From NCBI GenBank assembly GCA_022616725.1, contig JAKEEH010000340.1, positions 1 through 37,917 of the forward strand: a stretch of 37,917 nt of DNA. The letters are read 5' to 3'. Position numbers and translations under genes: made by a program. The notes beneath the pieces are model-generated. The model searched no databases. It was not told the origin of the DNA and saw only the letters and a program-made list of their open reading frames with translations. Source of the DNA: Limisphaerales bacterium. GTDB lineage: Bacteria; Verrucomicrobiota; Verrucomicrobiia; Limisphaerales; JAKEEH01. Positions 12,535 through 30,339 of this stretch are shown here, piece after piece (the stretch's first letter is position 1; every line of letters begins with the position of its first letter).

Positions 12535-13818
12535 ATGAAAAAAATCATTGCGTCCGCAGGATTGGTCGCAGTTAGTGCAACGGGGATTCAGGCTGCCCCT
12601 CCAGGATTATCTCCGATGGAGACATCCAAACCATGGAGTATCTCGGCCACATTGCGTGGTTTTTACGACGACAACTACGCCGCAGTGCACAAGAATATCA
12701 ATGATGATGTTGATAGCCTCGGATTTGAGATTCGTCCTGCCGCTCAATTGAATTTCCTCCCGACGGAGCAGACATTCATCGGTGTGGGGTATATCTACTC
12801 GATGAAGTATTACGCAGATCGCGATGAAAACACCGCCGACCACACGCACGAAGTCACCCTAAAGGCGGACCACCGGTTTTCGGAACGCTACAAAATCGAA
12901 TTTGATGATTCGTTCGTTTATGCCCAGGAGCCGACCTTGATTGAAGAAGGGGCCGTGGGCGCGCCGGACCGAACCGATTCGGATGCGTTCCGAAATCGCG
13001 CCGCGCTTAATTTCACGGCCGATATAACTGAACTGCTCGGCGTTGGTCTTGGGTACCAGAATCTCTGGTATGATTACGATCAAGATGGGGACTTCAGCCG
13101 CTCGGCTTTGTTGGATCGATTGGAGCACCTTTTCCGCATTGATGGCCGCTGGCGCGTCCGCGAAAGCACCGTCGCTCTCCTCGGGTATCAATATGGCGTT
13201 TTCAGTTATACTGGCGACGAGATCATCAACGATCCCGATTTTCCAGCGGGTAGTGTGACAAACAATGACGGGGACGAGGGAGTGAGTGAGGACCGCGACA
13301 GCACGTCGCATTATTTTTACATAGGCGCCGAGCAGGCGCTGACCACGCAGTTCTCTGCGTCGGCCCGCGTCGGTGCCCAGTTCACCGACTACGACAACCT
13401 GGATCAGGACCACACAAGTCCATACGCGGACATTCATGGCACCTACACATATTTACCCGGCAGTTACCTTCAGTTTGGGTTTCGGCATACACTCAACGCC
13501 ACTGATCTGGCCGGCGGTACGGGGAACGACATAACCACCGACCAGGAAACATCGGCTCTTTTTGCCTCGATCAACCATCGAATCACACCGCGCACGACCG
13601 GCAGTCTCGTTGGGCAATATCAACGGTCCAGCTTTAATAATGGTTTGTACGATGGCGAAGTTGACAATTTCCTGCTGTTGGGTCTGAATTTTGAATACAG
13701 ATTCAATCCCAACTGGGCCGCCGAGTTGGGCTATAACTATGACCGTTTGGATTCCGACATAGTATTGCGCAGCTACACGCGGAATCGCGTGTATGCGGGC
13801 GTGCGGGCTACTTACTAG
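12535..13818 (+). CDS. Outer-membrane beta-barrel protein of an exopolysaccharide locus
   Basis: Signal peptide MKKIIASAGLVAVSATGIQA; alternating aromatic/polar strands ending YNYDRLDSDIVLRSYTRNRVYAGVRATY. Confidence 0.82.
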   Translation: MKKIIASAGLVAVSATGIQAAPPGLSPMETSKPWSISATLRGFYDDNYAAVHKNINDDVDSLGFEIRPAAQLNFLPTEQTFIGVGYIYSMKYYADRDENTADHTHEVTLKADHRFSERYKIEFDDSFVYAQEPTLIEEGAVGAPDRTDSDAFRNRAALNFTADITELLGVGLGYQNLWYDYDQDGDFSRSALLDRLEHLFRIDGRWRVRESTVALLGYQYGVFSYTGDEIINDPDFPAGSVTNNDGDEGVSEDRDSTSHYFYIGAEQALTTQFSASARVGAQFTDYDNLDQDHTSPYADIHGTYTYLPGSYLQFGFRHTLNATDLAGGTGNDITTDQETSALFASINHRITPRTTGSLVGQYQRSSFNNGLYDGEVDNFLLLGLNFEYRFNPNWAAELGYNYDRLDSDIVLRSYTRNRVYAGVRATY

Positions 13819-13843
13819 TCATTTGAAACAATAATTCGGACGG

Positions 13844-13876
13844 GAGGCTGGAGGATCAATCTAGCCTCTTTTTTTT
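13844..13876 (+). terminator. Intrinsic terminator
   Basis: GAGGCT (13844-13849) - 13-nt loop - AGCCTC (13863-13868), then TTTTTTTT (13869-13876). Confidence 0.75.
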
Positions 13877-13880
13877 GAGT

Positions 13881-16049
13881 ATGGAAAACGCAAAACAAGC
13901 AACGTTTAACGCGCCGGAAGTCAAACTTCACTTTCTGGATTACTGGCGAATCATCCGCCTGCGCAAGACGGTGATTCTCGCCGTGTTTCTGTTGGTGACG
14001 ATCACCACGACGGTGGTGACGTTCATTCTTCCGAAGGCCTACGCCAGCAGTGTGCGCATGAAGGTGGAGAAGGACAGCCAGGACGTCGGCGGGCTTGGCA
14101 GCGAACGGCAGTACACCGGTTATGATCCCTATTGGGTGCAAACGGAGTTCGAGACCATTCAGTCGAAATCGATTCTGCACCAGGTTATCACCAACCTGAA
14201 TCTGAGCCGCAAATGGGCTGAAAAGTACAAGGAGGAAGGGGAACTGCCCACGGACCTGACCTATCAGATTCTAAAGAGCAAGATCGATGTGCGCCAGTCG
14301 CGCAACACGAGCTTGATCGAAGTACGCGCTTTCAGCGAGGACAACAATGAGGCAGCGGTAATAGCAAACGAGATCGCCAGCGTTTATCGCGAATCGCGGG
14401 TCAACCAGCGCAGGATGTATTCGGCGCGCGGCGTCGAGACGCTGAACAAGGAGTTTGAAAATCAGGACAAGCTCGTCAAAAAACAGCAGGCCGAAGTCGA
14501 TGCCATGAAGGAAGAGCTCGGGATTTCCGACTGGGAGGCGCAACAAGGTTATTCGATGTCCACCGTGGAGCCCGAGACGCTGCGAAAGCTGGAAGGGATG
14601 CGCATCGAACAACAGGCGAGTTATGAGCAGATTCACAAGTTATACACCCACTTGGCTGGCCTTGCCCGCCCGGAGTTGAAGAAGGCCGTCCAGGTCGCCT
14701 CCCCGGATTCGCATTTGGGGCTGCTGCTGGATCGCCAGGCGGAGTCTGACCAGAAGCTCGCGCTGGCAATCGAAAACTATTCCGAAAATCACCCCGAGGT
14801 GGCGGGGCTTCGCCGGCTGCTTCAAAAAATCGATACCCAAATCAATGACCGGCTCGACGGCATTCTGGAAGGACTTAAGGCGAAGACCGCATCAGAAAAG
14901 GCGGCGCTGGACCAGCTCGCGATGGAGGTGGACAAGGCAAAAAAAGTCGATATCGACGCCGCCATCAAGCGTCGTCCGTATTTCCAGGCCAAGCGTGACC
15001 TCGAGAGCCTTCAACTGGTGCGGGAGCGCCTTACGCTGCGCATCATTCAGGAGACCGTTGATGCGGCCATCCCGAAATCGGGCATTGTCGAGATTATCGA
15101 CCCCGCAGAACCGAGTCTGCGCGCCGTCCGGCCGAACAAAAAGTTTATTATTCCCGTGGCAGTGGTGATCGGATTGGCCCTTGGTATCGGGTTGGCATTC
15201 TTCATTGAATACCTCGACACGAGCGTGAAGACCATCGATGACGTGGAGCGGGCGCTACAATCGCCGGTACTGGGCGTGATCCCTCAAAACGTTGGTTCAT
15301 TGCTCCAGGAGGGGCCCGACAGCCCTCATGCGGAAGCCTATCGCGTATTGCGTACCAATATTCTCTTTTCGCAAAAGGAACCGAATGGCAACACGATCAC
15401 CATCGTCAGCGGCGGGGCAGGTGAAGGCAAATCCACCACCACGTTCAACCTCGCGACTATCTTCGCGCAGAATGGCCAACGGGTGCTGGTCGTCGATTCG
15501 GATCTCCGCCGCCCGAGTCTGCACAAAATCCTGAAGGTGAGTAACGCTGTTGGGCTGACGAATTACCTGCTGAAGCAGAACGCGTTGGAAGAAGTCATCC
15601 AGACGACGGGCCTGGCCACACTCGATTTCATGCCCAGCGGCAAGTTGCCGAGCAGTTCGATGGGGGTCCTCAGCTCGGTGCAAATGAAGGAAATGATCCA
15701 GGACCTTAAGCGCCGTTATGATTGGGTATTCTTTGATTCGCCGCCTATTATGGGGGTGAGCGACGCCTCAATCCTCGCCAGTGAGGTGGATATCGTGCTG
15801 CAGGTGATCCAGTATCGCCGCTATCCCCAACCAATGACCATCCGGGCGAAGCAGATGATCGAAAAGGTGGGCGGCAATCTGCTCGGCATTGTCCTGAACA
15901 ACATCAGCATGGCATCCGACGAGAATTATTATTATTACAGCGGTTATTATTACGATTACTACTCGAAGCAGGACGAGGAGGAGCCCGAAGTGAAAGCCAA
16001 CAAGCGCGGCAAGGCTGAGGAGAGGGCGGAGATCAAACAAAAATATTGA
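13881..16049 (+). CDS. Polysaccharide co-polymerase/tyrosine autokinase (Wzc-like BY-kinase)
   Basis: Wzz-like N-terminus; Walker A SGGAGEGKSTTTFNLA, Walker A' VLVVDSDLRRPS, Walker B YDWVFFDSPP; C-terminal tyrosine cluster ENYYYYSGYYYDYYS. Alternative TTG start at 13875. Confidence 0.95.
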   Translation: MENAKQATFNAPEVKLHFLDYWRIIRLRKTVILAVFLLVTITTTVVTFILPKAYASSVRMKVEKDSQDVGGLGSERQYTGYDPYWVQTEFETIQSKSILHQVITNLNLSRKWAEKYKEEGELPTDLTYQILKSKIDVRQSRNTSLIEVRAFSEDNNEAAVIANEIASVYRESRVNQRRMYSARGVETLNKEFENQDKLVKKQQAEVDAMKEELGISDWEAQQGYSMSTVEPETLRKLEGMRIEQQASYEQIHKLYTHLAGLARPELKKAVQVASPDSHLGLLLDRQAESDQKLALAIENYSENHPEVAGLRRLLQKIDTQINDRLDGILEGLKAKTASEKAALDQLAMEVDKAKKVDIDAAIKRRPYFQAKRDLESLQLVRERLTLRIIQETVDAAIPKSGIVEIIDPAEPSLRAVRPNKKFIIPVAVVIGLALGIGLAFFIEYLDTSVKTIDDVERALQSPVLGVIPQNVGSLLQEGPDSPHAEAYRVLRTNILFSQKEPNGNTITIVSGGAGEGKSTTTFNLATIFAQNGQRVLVVDSDLRRPSLHKILKVSNAVGLTNYLLKQNALEEVIQTTGLATLDFMPSGKLPSSSMGVLSSVQMKEMIQDLKRRYDWVFFDSPPIMGVSDASILASEVDIVLQVIQYRRYPQPMTIRAKQMIEKVGGNLLGIVLNNISMASDENYYYYSGYYYDYYSKQDEEEPEVKANKRGKAEERAEIKQKY

Positions 16050-16088
16050 TCCGCTGTCTAACTAAAGAACCAGAAAGAGAGATCAGTC

Positions 16089-16808
16089 ATGAAAGCATTC
16101 AAACTGGCGGCAGGATGCGCGCTTGCCGCGGTCGCGCTGGGCTTGGCCGGCTGCGGCAGCACACAACACGACCCGGTCAACCCCCCGCAGCCATTCGTAT
16201 TTCCCGGCCAAACACCGGATCCCGGGATGGTTCAGACGGCGCCGACCCCGGGTTTGCCGACGGCGCCCGTGCCGATCACGCCAATTGCTGTCAATCCCAA
16301 CCAGATTCCTCAGCCGACTCCACCACCGACCGCGGCGATTCTGAGCGCAGGGGATTTGGTGCGGATTTCGTTCTCGGATTTGCCGCCGCCCGGGATTCAG
16401 CCGCTGGACATACGTATCCCGCCGGACGGCAAGATCACTCTACCCTACAACATCACTGTTTTCGCCGTCGGCAAGACGGTCAACCAGTTGCAGGAGGAGA
16501 TACGCAACGCTTATGTGCCGAGCTTGTTTGTGCGCCTGACGGTCACTATTCGGCCCGAAGACCGCTTTTATTATGTCGGCGGGGAAGTGCGTGCTCCGGC
16601 GCGCCAACCCTATATGGGTGAGATTACGGTGCTGAGGGCGATTGACAGCGTCGGAGGCTTCACAGATTTCGCGAACCGCCGCAAAATCGAACTGCGTCGA
16701 GCAACGGGAGAAATCATCAAGGTTGACTGGAAAAAGGCCAGCAAGAATCCGCGGTTGGACCCGCCAGTTTATCCGAACGACCAAATCACCGTGCATCGCC
16801 GCTGGTAG
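16089..16808 (+). CDS. Polysaccharide export lipoprotein (Wza-like, poly_export/SLBB)
   Basis: Lipobox LGLAGCGS; LSAGDLVRISFSDLPPPGIQPLDIRIPPDGKITLPYNITVFAVGKTVNQLQEEI; YVGGEVRAPARQPYMGEITVLRAIDSVGGF. Confidence 0.93.
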   Translation: MKAFKLAAGCALAAVALGLAGCGSTQHDPVNPPQPFVFPGQTPDPGMVQTAPTPGLPTAPVPITPIAVNPNQIPQPTPPPTAAILSAGDLVRISFSDLPPPGIQPLDIRIPPDGKITLPYNITVFAVGKTVNQLQEEIRNAYVPSLFVRLTVTIRPEDRFYYVGGEVRAPARQPYMGEITVLRAIDSVGGFTDFANRRKIELRRATGEIIKVDWKKASKNPRLDPPVYPNDQITVHRRW

Positions 16809-16810
16809 CA

Positions 16811-17200
16811 GTGATCCAACTTGACGTCCTCTCCGGCAAAAAGGCGGGCACGAGCATCGTAACCCGCCATTTTCCTTTCTACGTGGGGCGTTCGCCGGAT
16901 TCCCTTCTGCGGCTCGACGATAGCGGCGTTTGGGAGCGGCACCTGATGTTTTCGCGGCGCGGGCAGGAGATCGTCTTTGACGTTGAGCCAAACGCGCTTG
17001 TAACGCTCAATCACGAACCGGTCAAAGGGACTGCGCCGTTGCGGAATGGCGATGTCGTCGAGGTTGGCGCCGCGAAGCTTCGTTTCGCCTTGTCGGCTGC
17101 CCGGCAACGCAGCCAAGCCTGGCGCGAAGTTGTTACGTGGATCGGCCTTGGGTTTCTCTGTATCGCGCAGGTAGGTGTGATCTACTGGGTACTTGACTAA
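16811..17200 (+). CDS. FHA-domain protein with C-terminal transmembrane segment
   Basis: FYVGRSPDSLLRLDDSGVWERHLMFSRRGQEIVF...LRNGDVVEVGAAKLRF, then WIGLGFLCIAQVGVIYWVLD. GTG start 2 nt after the Wza-like stop. Confidence 0.8.
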   Translation: MIQLDVLSGKKAGTSIVTRHFPFYVGRSPDSLLRLDDSGVWERHLMFSRRGQEIVFDVEPNALVTLNHEPVKGTAPLRNGDVVEVGAAKLRFALSAARQRSQAWREVVTWIGLGFLCIAQVGVIYWVLD

Positions 17201-17269: not shown

Positions 17270-17297
17270 TTGACGGCGCGGCAGCATTTGTTATTGT
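17270..17297 (+). promoter_or_regulatory. Candidate sigma-70 promoter TTGACG-N16-TATTGT
   Basis: -35 TTGACG 17270-17275, -10 TATTGT 17292-17297; predicted +1 near 17304, coincident with the leader peptide GTG. Confidence 0.5.
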
Positions 17298-17303
17298 GCG
17301 GGG

Positions 17304-17378
17304 GTGAATTTTCGCAGCTTTGGATTTAATCGCTGGCAACGCGGCGGGTTTTACTTCGGCCCGGCGTCCTGCGACTGA
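17304..17378 (+). CDS. Aromatic-rich attenuator leader peptide
   Basis: GTG-started 24 aa peptide (M/V)NFRSFGFNRWQRGGFYFGPASCD*: 5 Phe, 1 Trp, 1 Tyr, followed by antiterminator and terminator stems and DAHP synthase. Confidence 0.72.
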   Translation: MNFRSFGFNRWQRGGFYFGPASCD

Positions 17379-17412
17379 AGCTGCACGCGTTAAATTGGAG
17401 CTTTGCCGCAGG
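17368..17412 (+). promoter_or_regulatory. Candidate antiterminator stem
   Basis: CCTGCG (17368-17373) pairs with CGCAGG (17407-17412); AAGCT (17378-17382) pairs with AGCTT (17399-17403). Mutually exclusive with the terminator at 17405-17427. Confidence 0.65.
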
Positions 17413-17437
17413 TTCGCAGCCTGCGGCTTTTATTTTC
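17405..17437 (+). terminator. Attenuator terminator
   Basis: GCCGCAGG-TTCGCAG-CCTGCGGC (perfect 8-bp stem) followed by TTTTATTTTC. Confidence 0.82.
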
Positions 17438-17438
17438 T

Positions 17439-18452
17439 ATGATCGTCGTCCTGAAGCCAAACATTGCTAAGAAAGAAGAACGGGCCGTCCTGAAAGAGAT
17501 CCGAAAACTCGGCTATCGCCCGCACGTCATGCGCGGCGTCGAGCGAACGGTCATTGGTGCTATCGGCGACGAGCGGACTCATCAGACCCTGGAGACACTC
17601 GTTAGCTGGCCGCAGGTCGAAAGTGTTACCCCGATTCAAAAGCGTTACAAACTCGTCAGCCGTGATGCGCACGCGGCCAATTCGACTATTAACGTTCGCG
17701 GCAACGTCATAGGAGGGAAGAAGTTCCAAGTCATGGCCGGGCCGTGTTCGGTTGAAAGTGAGAAACAGTTGATGAGCACGGCGGAAGCTGTCGCGAAAGC
17801 CGGGGCCACGATTCTGCGGGGTGGGGCGTTTAAACCGCGCACTTCGCCTTACGAGTTTCAAGGTTTGGGCGAAAGAGGGTTGAAACTGCTCGACAAAGCC
17901 CGCCGGGAGACCGGTCTGGCTGTGATCACCGAGTTGCTCTCTGAACAGCACGCGGAACTCGTCGCCGAGTACGCCGACATCCTCCAAATCGGCACGCGCA
18001 ATGCGCAAAACTTTCAGCTTCTCATCGCCGCGGCGAAAACCGGCAAGCCCGTGCTGCTCAAGCGTGGCCTCTCAATGCGAATCGAGGAATGGCTTCTCGC
18101 CGGTGAGTACGTCCTCGCAAACGAAAACTGCGGGTTGATGTTTTGCGAACGCGGCGTGCGCACCTTTGAAACATATACGCGCAACACACTCGATCTCTCG
18201 ACCATACCAATCATCAAGCAGGAGTCGCACTGCCCGATCGTCATTGACCCGAGCCAGGGCGCTGGCCGTGCCGATCTCGTGGCCGCCATGTGCAAGGGCG
18301 CGGTCGCCATGGGTGCAGACGCGTTGTTAATTGAGGTCCATCCCAACCCGGCGGAAGCCTGGAGCGATGGCGCGCAGCAAGTGTCACTCGAGGCTTTCAG
18401 GCGGTTGATGAACGACTTGAGGCCATTCATAGCGGCGGCGGGTCGCGAATAG
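17439..18452 (+). CDS. aroF: 3-deoxy-7-phosphoheptulonate (DAHP) synthase
   Basis: MIVVLKPNIAKKEERAVLKEIRKLGY, VMAGPCSVESEKQLM, LRGGAFKPRTSPYEFQGLGERGL, PIVIDPSQGAGR. ATG at 17439, not the track TTG at 17403, which lies inside the attenuator. Confidence 0.96.
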   Translation: MIVVLKPNIAKKEERAVLKEIRKLGYRPHVMRGVERTVIGAIGDERTHQTLETLVSWPQVESVTPIQKRYKLVSRDAHAANSTINVRGNVIGGKKFQVMAGPCSVESEKQLMSTAEAVAKAGATILRGGAFKPRTSPYEFQGLGERGLKLLDKARRETGLAVITELLSEQHAELVAEYADILQIGTRNAQNFQLLIAAAKTGKPVLLKRGLSMRIEEWLLAGEYVLANENCGLMFCERGVRTFETYTRNTLDLSTIPIIKQESHCPIVIDPSQGAGRADLVAAMCKGAVAMGADALLIEVHPNPAEAWSDGAQQVSLEAFRRLMNDLRPFIAAAGRE

Positions 18453-18460
18453 ATTCATTC

Positions 18461-20323
18461 ATGGGGCCGAGGGTCACGATTGCGCGGAACCGCCTGGATG
18501 CGGCGCTGGAAGTGGCCCAATCAGAGTTGCTCGGGCGGTGCAACAGCGCGGGACAGTGGGAGGGCGAACTGTCAAGCAGCGCGCTCTCGACGGCGACTGC
18601 GGTCACCGCGATCGCTCTTGCGGACCGTAACTCCACGTCAACTCAGATTGCCCATGGCTTGCGCTGGCTGGCTGAAAATGTCAATGCGGACGGCGGCTGG
18701 GGCGACACCACCGTCAGCAAAAGCAACCTCAGCACGACCACCTTATGTTGGGCTGCTTTTGGCGCAGTGCCGGGAGCAGACGAGAAATTTAACGGCGTGA
18801 TCGCGAAGGCACAGCAGTGGTTGTGGAAAGCCGTCGGCAGCCGGAACGTTCATACGCTCGCCCGCGCCGTCGTCGCGCGTTATGGCAAGGACCGCACTTT
18901 CTCCTCCCCGATCCTCACCATGTGCGCCCTTTCCGGAAGACTTGGGCGGGGCGCGTCGGCGTGGGACCACGTGATCCAACTTCCGTTTGAACTCGCTGCG
19001 TTTCCGCCGAGGCTCTACTCACTGCTTCGGTTGCCGGTTGTGAGCTACGCTCTGCCAGCGCTTATCGCTGTCGGCCAGGCAAAGCACCACCACGCGCCAA
19101 CCGGCAATGCCATCATCGATGCCATCCGTGATTGGCTCAGACCGCGTACCTTGGAGATCCTGCGAGCGATTCAGCCCTCCAGCGGTGGCTTCCTGGAAGC
19201 CACTCCGCTCACCAGTTTCGTCGTGATGAGTCTTGCCTCTAGCGGTCAAGCCGGGCATCCGGTCACGCGCAAAGGGCTGGGGTTCCTTAGAGCCTCCCAG
19301 CGCAGCGACGGTTCCTGGCCGATCGACACCAATCTCGCCACGTGGGTGACAACGCTCGCGACCAATGCATTACTTGCACCGGCAGATGGGATTCCTCACC
19401 CGCAGCTTACTGTCGCGGGATTGGACGCAGTTCGCGATTGGCTTGTGCAGCAACAACACACTCGGATTCATCCTTACACCAATGCCGCACCGGGCGGATG
19501 GGCATGGACGGACTTGCCTGGTGGAGTGCCGGATGGCGATGACACGTCGGGCGCGGTTCTTGCCTTATCGCGAGTAAATCCAAATGAGAGAGCGAACGGA
19601 GCGGCGATAAGTGGCTTGCGCTGGCTGATCGATCTGCAAAACGCCGATGGCGGCCTGCCTACGTTCTGTCGCGGGTGGGGAGCCCTTCCGTTCGACCGCA
19701 GCAGCGCGGACATCACCGCGCATGGAATCGAAGCATGGCTGGCATGGCTTGATCATGTTCCCTCTGAATTGGAAAGCGCCCTCCACAACGCGATTCGTAG
19801 CGCGGTACAATTCCTCTTCAAGCGCCAGACCGCTGAGGGTGCGTGGACGCCGCTGTGGTTCGGCAACGAACATGCGCCCGACGAGCAGAACCTTACTTAC
19901 GGCACTGCGCGTGTCGTGACCGCGCTGGCAAACCTCGCTGCGAGCCGGCCCCACGTCGGGTGGTTCGAGCCGTATTTTCAGCGCGCACTGAACCACATGC
20001 TGCCCGCGGGTGTCGCATGGCTGATCAAGGCTCAGCAACGCGATGGCGCTTGGAGCGGCGGGGTGATTGGGCCGGTTTCCGTAGAAGAGACCTCCCTCGC
20101 CTTGACAGCACTTGCGACCGCGCTGGCCCACATTGAAACTCCCGCTGCCACCGCGGGCGCGATTTCACGCGGGGCGGATTGGCTGATCGACAAGGTGGAA
20201 CGTGGCGAATGGAAGAAACCCTCGCCCATCGGCTTTTACTTCGCGCGTTTATGGTATTATGAAACAGTCTATCCTCTCATTTTCACCATGAGCGCTCTGC
20301 GCGCGATCGGCGCCATTTCCTGA
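18461..20323 (+). CDS. Squalene-hopene cyclase-like class II terpene cyclase
   Basis: QW-like repeats (QRSDGSWPIDTNLATW, QNADGGLPTFCRGWG, QTAEGAWTPLWFG, QQRDGAWSGGVIG) and GGWAWTDLPGGVPDGDDTSGA containing the D-x-D-D-T acid motif. Confidence 0.87.
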   Translation: MGPRVTIARNRLDAALEVAQSELLGRCNSAGQWEGELSSSALSTATAVTAIALADRNSTSTQIAHGLRWLAENVNADGGWGDTTVSKSNLSTTTLCWAAFGAVPGADEKFNGVIAKAQQWLWKAVGSRNVHTLARAVVARYGKDRTFSSPILTMCALSGRLGRGASAWDHVIQLPFELAAFPPRLYSLLRLPVVSYALPALIAVGQAKHHHAPTGNAIIDAIRDWLRPRTLEILRAIQPSSGGFLEATPLTSFVVMSLASSGQAGHPVTRKGLGFLRASQRSDGSWPIDTNLATWVTTLATNALLAPADGIPHPQLTVAGLDAVRDWLVQQQHTRIHPYTNAAPGGWAWTDLPGGVPDGDDTSGAVLALSRVNPNERANGAAISGLRWLIDLQNADGGLPTFCRGWGALPFDRSSADITAHGIEAWLAWLDHVPSELESALHNAIRSAVQFLFKRQTAEGAWTPLWFGNEHAPDEQNLTYGTARVVTALANLAASRPHVGWFEPYFQRALNHMLPAGVAWLIKAQQRDGAWSGGVIGPVSVEETSLALTALATALAHIETPAATAGAISRGADWLIDKVERGEWKKPSPIGFYFARLWYYETVYPLIFTMSALRAIGAIS

Positions 20324-26011: not shown

Positions 26012-26087
26012 TGGGGTGGCCAACGGGACTCGAACCCGCAACATCCAGAACCACAATCTGGGGCTCTACCATTGAGCTATAGCCACC
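26012..26087 (-). tRNA. tRNA-His (GTG)
   Basis: GGTGGCTATAGCTCAATGGTAGAGCCCCAGATTGTGGTTCTGGATGTTGCGGGTTCGAGTCCCGTTGGCCACCCCA: cloverleaf, anticodon GTG, G-1:C73 pair, encoded CCA, followed by T5. Confidence 0.97.
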
Positions 26088-27165: not shown

Positions 27166-30100
27166 ATGCCTGAGCTTGATGATGCAGCCGTCGGCGACCT
27201 CCCGGTGATTCCTGGATTGGCGTTGTTGCGCCGCATTGGCCGCGGCAGTTACGGCGACGTTTGGCTGGCCCAGGAGGCGAACGGGGACTTTCGCGCGGTC
27301 AAAATCGTCTATCGTAAAACTTTCGAGCGGGATCGGCCCTTTGAACGGGAGTTCTCCGGAATCCAGAAGTTTCAGCCCGTGTCCCATGCGGAACCCAGTC
27401 AGGTTTCCATCCTGCAGGTGGGGCGCGATGACGAGGCTGGTTTCTTCTACTATGTGATGGAACTGGCGGACGACGAGGTGTCGGGCCGACAGATCGATCC
27501 CGCAGTTTACAAGCCGAAGACGCTGCGCAGTGAAGTCTCCCGCGCAGGCCGCATTCCTTACCTTCAAGCGCTCGATATCAGCCTTTCGCTGACCAAGGCG
27601 CTCGAGCATTTGCACCGGCACGGGCTGATTCATCGCGACATCAAGCCGTCCAATATTATTTTTGTGAACGGTGTGGCCAAGTTGGCTGACATCGGGCTGG
27701 TGACCGACGTGGGCGCTTCGATCTCCTATGTCGGAACCGAAGGCTTCCTGCCTCCGGAAGGTCCGGTCAGCCCTCAAGCCGATATATACAGCCTGGGTAA
27801 AGTGCTATACGAAATGAGCACAGGCCAGGACCGCCTTGATTTTCCGGAATTGCCGACATTTCTGGGCGACGCCGCCGAAAAGCAGGGATTGCTGGAACTG
27901 AACCTCGTCTTTCTTAAAGCGTGTCAAAATGACCCGCTCAAACGTTATCGCTCCGCACACGACATGTACGCTGACCTGACGCTGTTGCGCGGCGGCAAAT
28001 CATTGAAGCGGGCTCGCGCGCTCGAGAAAAGGCTTGCCACGGCGACGCGCGCATCCATTGCTACCGCAGCCATCGGGTTGCTGGTAGCGACTGGACTCTA
28101 CCTTTTCAACCAGCACCGCTTGAACAAACTTCAAGCGGAAATAACGCGGCAACGTCACGACGCACGATTGGTTGAGAACACAGCAAAAGAGACGAGAGAA
28201 CGGTTGATCAAGCTTTTCGTCGCGCATGGCGAGCAATCCCTCCGGGCGGGCGATGCGGGAGGAGCCCTCGCGTGGCATGCGCGGGCGCTTTACGAGGAGG
28301 TCGAACCCTCTGGCGTCGCGGCACATCAGAGCCGCATGGCGCGATTGCTGAAGAGCTTTCCGAAGCTAGCCGGCTTCCTTGCGCACACCGGCGGCATTCA
28401 TTCGGCATACTTCAGTCACGACAATGCACGCGTGATCACTGCCGGGGAGGACCAGACCGCGAGAATTTGGGACATTGCTTCGGGCCAATTGGCGACAAAG
28501 CCGCTGCGCCACAAGAGCGCGGTTGTTGACGCCAGGCTCAACGCGGATCAGCAGCGTGTCCTGTCAATTTGCCAGGACGGCACCGCATGGCTTTGGCGCC
28601 TGGCCCCGGATGAGACCATTGCGCTGGAACTATCGCACGGTGCCGCGGCTCGGGCGGGGGAGTTCAGCCCGAATGGCCGCCTGGCCCTGACCCGCGGAGA
28701 GAACACAAGCATCGTCGTCTGGGACGGCCTGAATGCACGTGAACGTTTCCGGCTCAGACACGAGGCGGTTCCCGCCGATGCCCGCTTCAGCGCGGACGGG
28801 CGCTACATTGGAGTCGTCGCCGGGCCAACACTTCGCGTTTGGGACACCGAACGCGGCGATCATGTTTCCGAGGCCCGCTCAGCACACGGCGAAGTGACGC
28901 AAATCGCGTTCGGATCGGAAAATCGGCGGGCGGTTGTTGTCGCCGGAGGTGTCGCGCAGGTCTGCAATATTGCCAGTGGTGAATGGGCGATCTTCACGAT
29001 CAGGGAGACGGCACGAATTACGTCGGCGCAATTCCTGCCGGATGGCTCCATCATCACCGCAACCGAATCAGGCGCCGTTCACCTGTGGGACAGCGTGACG
29101 GGGGACCGGATCAAAGAGTTATGGACATTCAGAGATCGCGTCAACGTCGTTCCGATCAGCCCGGACGGCGCGGTGGGGCTCTGCGTCGCCAATCACTCCG
29201 CGTACGTTATTGATCTCAAGAGCAATTATGCCGTAATTCCTCCCGTATTGTGCCAAGGCCGCGGACAGAGGGCGGCGTTCAGTTCCGATGCGCGTCTGTT
29301 GTTGACCGCCGGCGGCAGCGGGGCAGTTTGGATCACCGCCATGCCCACCGGCACGACTAATGATGTCTGTACATTCGCCGCGCTCGCGCGCGACGAGCTG
29401 ATGTCCGCCTCGCGCGTGCTGTCGGGACGTGAAGTGGATGAGGGCGAACGGCTCGTCGAGGTGCAACCGGCGCGCTTGCGTGCGGACTGGGAGCGACTGC
29501 GAACGAATGCCGCGTTCAGGCTAATGGCACCCGCCGCCTGGCACCGAGCGCGAGCCGAGCGGCTCTTCGGAGATGGGATGTGGTTTGGGGTCCGATTCCA
29601 TGCAGAGCGCCTGGCGAAGTTGAACGTGGCCGATGACCAAGTCCGGTCGTGGGATCAGCAAGCATCCATTGAATTGGCACGCGCGGCCAGTCACCACGGT
29701 TCAAGCCTGGTCGCCACCCCTTCCACGCCTACCCCGGCACGCTCGCCGGACGCGACACCGAACCTCATCGATCTGACGCGCTATTACAACGCGAGCCTGG
29801 CGCAAACCTGGTTGCCCACCAACTACGTCGGGCGCAGCAACGACCTCGCCCAGCTTCCGGTCGGAGTGCAAAAGCTGAATGGGGTGGCCTTTGAAATTCG
29901 TGGGTTGATTCAGCTTTCTGGCAGTGCGCTGGAGAATTTCGGCGCGAGATTCCCGCAGCGCGTCGCGAATATTCCTGTCCAACGCAAATGTCGCAAATTG
30001 CATTTCCTGCAGGGCGCGGCCTGGGAAGCGCTCTACGGCACAGTTATCGGCAAATATGTCGTGACCTACGCCGACGGCGAGCGGCGCGAAATCAAGATCG

Positions 30101-30339
30101 TGTTTGGGAAAAACGTGCGCGAGTGGTGGTTCCCGCCGACTCAGCCGCAAATCACCATGGAGGCCGCTGTTGCGTGGCAGGGAACAAATCCCGCGAGCCG
30201 AAATATGGGTATGGCGCTACGAATTTACCAGTTCCAGTGGGAGAATCCGCGGCCTGACACGGAAGTCCACACTATCGACTTCGTCTCCTCGATGGAAAAG
30301 CCCGCGCCGTTCCTGCTCGCGATCACGGCTGAGGATTGA
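27166..30339 (+). CDS. Transmembrane Ser/Thr protein kinase with WD40 repeats and C-terminal beta-rich domain
   Basis: RIGRGSYGDVWLAQ, VKIV, HRDIKPSNIIFVNGVAKLADIGL; TM ASIATAAIGLLVATGLYLF; WD-like ARVITAGEDQTARIWDIASGQ repeats; C-terminal LPVGVQKLNGVAFEIRGLIQLSG domain. Confidence 0.93.
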   Translation: MPELDDAAVGDLPVIPGLALLRRIGRGSYGDVWLAQEANGDFRAVKIVYRKTFERDRPFEREFSGIQKFQPVSHAEPSQVSILQVGRDDEAGFFYYVMELADDEVSGRQIDPAVYKPKTLRSEVSRAGRIPYLQALDISLSLTKALEHLHRHGLIHRDIKPSNIIFVNGVAKLADIGLVTDVGASISYVGTEGFLPPEGPVSPQADIYSLGKVLYEMSTGQDRLDFPELPTFLGDAAEKQGLLELNLVFLKACQNDPLKRYRSAHDMYADLTLLRGGKSLKRARALEKRLATATRASIATAAIGLLVATGLYLFNQHRLNKLQAEITRQRHDARLVENTAKETRERLIKLFVAHGEQSLRAGDAGGALAWHARALYEEVEPSGVAAHQSRMARLLKSFPKLAGFLAHTGGIHSAYFSHDNARVITAGEDQTARIWDIASGQLATKPLRHKSAVVDARLNADQQRVLSICQDGTAWLWRLAPDETIALELSHGAAARAGEFSPNGRLALTRGENTSIVVWDGLNARERFRLRHEAVPADARFSADGRYIGVVAGPTLRVWDTERGDHVSEARSAHGEVTQIAFGSENRRAVVVAGGVAQVCNIASGEWAIFTIRETARITSAQFLPDGSIITATESGAVHLWDSVTGDRIKELWTFRDRVNVVPISPDGAVGLCVANHSAYVIDLKSNYAVIPPVLCQGRGQRAAFSSDARLLLTAGGSGAVWITAMPTGTTNDVCTFAALARDELMSASRVLSGREVDEGERLVEVQPARLRADWERLRTNAAFRLMAPAAWHRARAERLFGDGMWFGVRFHAERLAKLNVADDQVRSWDQQASIELARAASHHGSSLVATPSTPTPARSPDATPNLIDLTRYYNASLAQTWLPTNYVGRSNDLAQLPVGVQKLNGVAFEIRGLIQLSGSALENFGARFPQRVANIPVQRKCRKLHFLQGAAWEALYGTVIGKYVVTYADGERREIKIVFGKNVREWWFPPTQPQITMEAAVAWQGTNPASRNMGMALRIYQFQWENPRPDTEVHTIDFVSSMEKPAPFLLAITAED

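Follow-up and report, generated by a model that had tools for sequence, protein, structure and literature searches.

The gene aroF of a Limisphaerales bacterium, encoding a DAHP synthase, is very probably controlled by a ribosome-mediated transcription attenuator that senses charged tRNA-Phe and tRNA-Tyr. The element lies in a contig of 37,917 nucleotides (JAKEEH010000340.1), referred to as the window; its parts are collected in Table 1. A 1-2-3-4 attenuator of DAHP synthase had been proposed in a preliminary description of this DNA. On re-reading of the sequence, the ORF, stem and terminator coordinates given there were correct base for base, and the proposal is supported by the conserved codons, coevolving stems and terminators of related loci. 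The case from the window sequence alone is modest, and conservation across loci decides.

Table 1. Features of the putative aroF attenuator, with positions in the window
Feature	Position	Strand	Basis
Promoter: -35 TTGACG (17270-17275), 16-bp spacer, extended -10 TGT-TATTGT (hexamer 17292-17297)	17270-17297	+	Promoter-like match
Leader ORF, 24 codons, VNFRSFGFNRWQRGGFYFGPASCD and stop	17304-17378	+	GTG start, without Shine-Dalgarno sequence; homologous leaders in 65 other loci
Segment 1, GCAGCTT, pairing with AAGCTGC 17378-17384 (protector 1:2)	17314-17320	+	MFE fold; partner-swap p 3e-8
P1 hairpin CGGGT/GCCCG, control codons in and beside the loop	17345-17363	+	Partner-swap p 8e-10, 60 loci
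Control codons TTT TAC TTC (Phe16-Tyr17-Phe18)	17349-17357	+	Aromatic residues at the three core columns in 89%, 95% and 67% of leaders
Segment 2, antiterminator 5' arm: CCTGCG 17368-17373 and AAGCT 17378-17382	17368-17384	+	Duplex/folding, partner-swap
Segment 3, antiterminator 3' arm: AGCTT 17399-17403 and CGCAGG 17407-17412	17399-17412	+	Constrained folding
Intrinsic terminator 3:4, perfect 8-bp stem GCCGCAGG/CCTGCGGC (17405-17427) and U-tract (17428-17437)	17405-17437	+	Found in 62/65 homologous leader loci
aroF, type I-beta DAHP synthase with N-terminal ferredoxin-like regulatory domain	17439-18452	+	Pfam PF00793, PF18152; NCBIfam NF006421

Leader ORF and alternative RNA structures in the window

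Translation of the GTG ORF yields the leader peptide (V/M)NFRSFGFNRWQRGGFYFGPASCD, which contains five Phe, one Trp and one Tyr and ends at a TGA (17376-17378) that overlaps segment 2. The Phe-Tyr-Phe codons are positioned 11-19 nt 5' of segment 2, with the Tyr codon 16 nt from the start of this segment, while the Trp11 codon (17334-17336) lies about 30 nt 5' of it. For the window taken singly and an assumed aromatic frequency of 8%, the chance of at least seven aromatic residues in 23 codons is P ~0.002, and the fold z-score was -1.8.

Segment 3 shares bases with the 5' arm of the terminator (GCCGCAGG, 17405-17412). The 3' arm CCTGCGGC (17420-17427) is directly followed by TTTTATTTTC (17428-17437). 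In the window sequence, the pairings 1:2, 2:3 and 3:4 are mutually exclusive. When the RNA 5' of segment 2 was treated as held by the ribosome and segment 4 as not yet made, segment 3 paired with segment 2 over 7 of 8 nt. For the 1:2 pairing, TCGCAG (17312-17317) with CTGCGA (17369-17374) had been put forward in the preliminary description; both sequences are present, but the helix that matches those of relatives is the longer GCAGCTT:AAGCTGC. A repeat-element origin of the terminator hairpin was considered and ruled out, as the 6.07 Mb genome contains a single copy of the perfect stem motif, which thus is not a dispersed repeat.

Conservation of the leader in related aroF loci

A scan of genome contigs yielded 80 related aroF loci; nearly every one bore the label Verrucomicrobia, Limisphaerales or Pedosphaera. 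In 65 of them a leader ORF rich in aromatic codons matched that of the window, 62 of these 65 also had a detectable terminator, and at some close aroF loci (e.g. L055, L056 and L072) the element had no counterpart. The upstream regions of the relatives follow a common order, in which a start codon opens a frame rich in Phe, Tyr and Trp with a core such as TTTTACTTTAG, followed by CCTGCG...GGGCTG and the stop. Beyond the stop come ACCC...CCGCAGG-loop-CCTGCGG, a T-tract and, ~35-45 nt on, aroF. In the window the distance from the terminator stem to the aroF ATG is 11 nt, compared with 35-45 nt in most relatives, and the U-tract abuts the start codon. The aligned leader peptides read (M/V)-N-S...F...F-x-G-[YF][YFW]F-S-P...L-R-x-G-L-R.

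In the leader set (n = 66; 65 related loci and the window), aromatic residues made up 24.1% of the leader frame versus 6.8% and 9.4% of the other two frames; the in-frame figure is somewhat inflated because at least three aromatics were required in picking the leaders, which does not explain the shared positions and the core. The other two frames were interrupted by stop codons in 62/66 and 44/66 loci. Compared with AroF, the leaders were enriched 5.6-fold in Phe, 3.7-fold in Tyr and 7.2-fold in Trp. The ratio of the Phe codons TTT:TTC was 183:50 in the leaders versus 103:422 in aroF.

Coevolution of the alternative stems

Consensus folding of a MAFFT alignment kept the terminator helix alone, since the positions of segments 1 and 2 vary from locus to locus. 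In its place, duplexes were tested locus by locus and partner-swap tests were run. In the latter, the pairing of a segment with its own partner was compared with its pairing to the partners of dissimilar loci (60 loci). The own partner gave the more stable pairing for 2:3 (p 6e-6), 1:2 (p 3e-8) and P1 (p 8e-10), where related loci are counted as independent apart from the similarity filter; no own-partner advantage was observed for 1:3 (p 0.95) or P1:3 (p 0.47), which served as controls. Against dinucleotide shuffles, with loci counted in the same way, the mean z was -2.3 for 2:3, -1.5 for 1:2 and -1.75 for the control-codon hairpin. A 1:2 helix of at least 6 bp was present in 56/63 loci with 49 distinct 5' arms, a descriptive count of the longest helix within the search window; examples are CTCAACACGCGA/TTGCGTGTTGAG (L063), ATTGCAGAAA/TTTCTGCAAT (L082) and TCAACGCAGCC/GGCTGCGTTGA (L008). 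P1 of locus L042, GGTCCGGCTA-TTT-TAGCCGGGCC, carries aromatic codons in its loop. Conservation in relatives had been named beforehand as the check on the proposal, and here it came out in its favour, with conserved Phe/Tyr codons and coevolving stems.

In folds that began at the boundary of a ribosome taken to be stalled on the core codon and ran through segment 3, most loci formed the antiterminator. The core codon is separated from the stop by exactly 36 nt (12 codons) in 44/60 loci and by 24 nt in the window; its distance to the start of segment 2 is 17 nt in 29 loci and 16 nt in the window. This spacing suits a stalled ribosome that frees segment 2 as well as a terminating ribosome that covers it.

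Promoter and predicted start of the transcript

The promoter was the sole promoter-like match within 1.8 kb, giving the layout TTGACG-N16-TATTGT-GCGGGG-GTG in the window. The arrangement TTGAC(G)-N16-TGnTAnnnT was found in 65/66 leaders, with the -35 element as TTGA(C)(G) and a spacing of mostly 16 bp, and the leader start codon follows 6-9 nt past the -10 element in 59/66 loci. Given the usual distance between a -10 element and the start site, transcripts should start on the leader start codon or a few bases away. In the window, transcription is accordingly predicted, from the sequence, to start at ~17304, where the leader GTG begins, give or take a few bases, so that the leader ORF looks leaderless; an SD-like stretch precedes it in 1/66 leaders. 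The element points to leaderless translation as a possible driver of attenuation; a precedent for a leaderless attenuator RNA is rnTrpL of Sinorhizobium (PMC7298713). Between terminator and aroF, no further promoter-like site was found in the window. An SD-like stretch before aroF was detected in just 3/66 loci, and translation of aroF therefore appears to be SD-independent too.

Proposed mechanism and alternative explanations

With plentiful Phe and Tyr, the ribosome would reach the stop inside segment 2 and cover this segment, upon which the terminator 3:4 would halt transcription before aroF. If Phe-tRNA or Tyr-tRNA ran short, the ribosome would stall at Phe-Tyr-Phe, opening P1 and 1:2 and leaving segment 2 free, 2:3 would form and the polymerase would read into aroF. 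Without translation, 1:2 and P1 would be expected to form, and the terminator would form too. P1 may double as a pause hairpin that couples the polymerase to the first ribosome. Since segment 1 lies ~30 nt 5' of the control codons, the stalled ribosome would not be located on it, and release of 1:2 would therefore have to come from the opening of P1 and competition by 2:3.

The hairpin might instead terminate the upstream FHA-domain gene, which is located on the same strand and ends at 17200, ~200 nt before the hairpin, in which case the aromatic ORF would be a product of chance. This is very improbable, given the conserved promoter between that gene and the leader, the gap of 11 nt between hairpin and aroF, which leaves too little space for aroF to have a promoter of its own, and an ORF, aromatic codons and alternative stems that are conserved and coevolve over 60 loci. 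We likewise give hardly any weight to a riboswitch or T-box, i.e. a leader RNA that binds a ligand or tRNA and is not a translated sensor. A structured leader that contains both a terminator and an antiterminator and precedes a biosynthesis gene would suit such an RNA, but none of the Rfam leader families, T-box included, matched in the window, or near the element in the scanned relatives at permissive thresholds. Moreover, conservation tracks the reading frame, as seen from the aromatic shares of the three frames, with no fixed RNA core, and the leaders of other families are unalignable yet keep their aromatic codons.

A switch driven mainly by Trp, or by a general slowdown of translation, and not by Phe/Tyr is unlikely as well. 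Trp11 of the window leader and the 7-fold enrichment of Trp in leaders over AroF point towards Trp, but the core columns are Phe/Tyr, which dominate the control site (Trp accounts for 9/189 core codons), Trp11 is encoded ~30 nt 5' of segment 2, and no such leader precedes the gene for the genome's second DAHP synthase, of AroG/H type. Similarly low is the probability of an additional action in trans, by the leader peptide or by the leader RNA after termination, as reported for rnTrpL/peTrpL of Sinorhizobium meliloti (PMC7298713). The leaderless architecture resembles that of rnTrpL, and the C-terminus of the peptide is partly conserved within the order (L-R-x-G-L-R/P); however, the C-terminal codons overlap segment 2, so that RNA pairing explains their conservation, and the peptides are completely different between families. 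Attenuation in response to charged tRNA-Phe and tRNA-Tyr is the reading that we prefer.

Distribution in the order and the phylum

A covariance model (R1) was built from 59 loci, and copies of 42 bits or more were regarded as strong. One strong copy was found in 94/196 genomes of the same order, some of which had supplied the model, and all copies fetched (30/30) were located just upstream of aroF. Outside the order, R1 gave weak matches alone, mostly plain terminators. Two of these weak matches preceded aroF (L119, VNRFPAYFYSFGFWGYFTRKIMGG and stop; L120, MNLNSVYFRFYFYAAFYFRKRAFIAVLIP and stop) and prompted a survey of the whole phylum.

At aroF genes of other Verrucomicrobiota families, 34/109 upstream regions contained a leader with four or more aromatics in six residues, compared with 2/109 reverse complements and 69/2180 shuffles (3%). 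Among 35 leaders picked by hand from about ten further families of the phylum, a terminator was detected in 26/35 versus 21/350 shuffles (6%) and the 2:3 pairing had a mean z of -2.4; as these leaders were chosen for their aromatic content, the terminator and pairing results alone are independent evidence. The leader peptides differ between families (MNRYFGFGFYFGPRAARPSR, MNSKRVYFYFSYFRSPDTRFGSAR, MSFINNSFFYYFFSCFAYFYYRKRGG and others) and are unalignable while the architecture matches; they are too different for a common origin to be shown by alignment. Attenuation of aroF had been ascribed to "this lineage" in the preliminary description. The element is present in the order, but a confinement to one lineage did not hold, given the matching attenuators of about ten other families.

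A wider reading combines several points: Phe/Tyr control of aroF would be phylum-wide and ancestral in Verrucomicrobiota, would rest on leaderless leader ORFs in the class to which the window belongs and on a nested hairpin with the control codons in its loop, and would have originated independently of the actinobacterial and mollicute cases; the leaderless terminated RNA might also act in trans. Taken together this is possible, with the balance leaning somewhat against it. The switch is widespread in a little-studied phylum, absent from Rfam and located at the entry of carbon into the aromatic pathway, and about 100 comparable sequences fix its parts. The aroF upstream regions form a natural data set on how often such switches arise anew at one gene.

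In G290 (L171 and L176) and in further genomes that encode two I-beta enzymes, the aromatic leader precedes one aroF copy and not the other, hinting at divided regulation between the isozymes.

Relation to known attenuators

In Escherichia coli, aroF is under TyrR control. The E. coli pheL-pheA and trpL-trp systems likewise use 1:2, 2:3 and 3:4 alternatives, control codons and an intrinsic terminator (PMC11802643). They differ from the element described here in the gene concerned; in this element, moreover, a hairpin enclosed by 1:2 carries the control codons in its loop, and the predicted 5' end falls on the start codon. The 5' end of the S. meliloti attenuator RNA rnTrpL (trpL) also coincides with the leader start codon, but this RNA carries Trp codons and belongs to the trpE(G) operon of an alphaproteobacterium (PMC7298713).

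The aroR-aroF attenuator of Corynebacterium glutamicum is reported to be read through on ribosome stalling and to respond to limitation of Phe, not of Tyr (Neshat et al., 2014, as described in PMC11802643; PMC4046766). It shares with the window a Phe-Tyr-Phe leader peptide directly 5' of the DAHP synthase gene. The C. glutamicum aroR is actinobacterial, and the likeness, drawn from the Phe-Tyr-Phe codons and the gene context with the sequences unaligned, is no evidence of common descent. In the proposed motif uORFC-13-1 (Acholeplasma, environmental DNA; PMC8632094), a uORF with Phe codon(s) by a terminator likewise precedes aroF; it has 24 representatives in another taxon and a ribosome binding site, whereas the window leader is without Shine-Dalgarno sequence and looks leaderless. 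Shikimate-linked uORFs with Phe/Tyr have also been noted (PMC6429828).

The leader-peptide attenuators documented so far come chiefly from Proteobacteria, Actinobacteria and some Firmicutes; according to a 2010 study, none had been shown outside Proteobacteria and Actinobacteria before the Firmicutes case that it reported (PMC2965389). For Verrucomicrobia or Verrucomicrobiota, nothing relevant on leader-peptide attenuation was found in the open-licence literature. Control of aroF by a Phe-Tyr-Phe leader was already known from C. glutamicum, and in Verrucomicrobiota it is apparently undescribed.

AroF, further DAHP synthases and gene neighbourhood

PF00793 (DAHP_synth_1) and PF18152 were above cut-off in AroF, and NF006421 scored 454 bits against a cut-off of 335. 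The nearest solved relative is 1rzm/3pg9, and the start at ATG 17439 (MIVVLKPN...) is common to the 80 relatives. The source genome (G000) is a MAG of 6.07 Mb in 583 contigs. Its AroG/H-type DAHP synthase gene, which is without aromatic leader, is located on contig C136 (370-1386, minus strand; L246) and is directly preceded by TATGGT-GTAACCG-ATG, another possibly leaderless start. No class II DAHP synthase was found in this genome, and from length and sequence the third PF00793 match looks like a KDO8P synthase. Upstream of its aroG, pheA and trpE, no similar leader was found.

A squalene-hopene-cyclase-like gene (18461-20323) starts 8 nt past aroF and may be co-transcribed; as a conserved partner of aroF it was rejected, since a homolog was adjacent in 2/75 loci. 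The upstream genes (12535-17200) resemble an exopolysaccharide export set consisting of a beta-barrel porin, a Wzz/tyrosine-kinase-like protein, a Poly_export/SLBB protein and the FHA-domain protein. The window further contains a tRNA gene (26015-26086, minus strand) and a gene for a serine/threonine kinase with WD40 repeats (27166-30339, plus strand).
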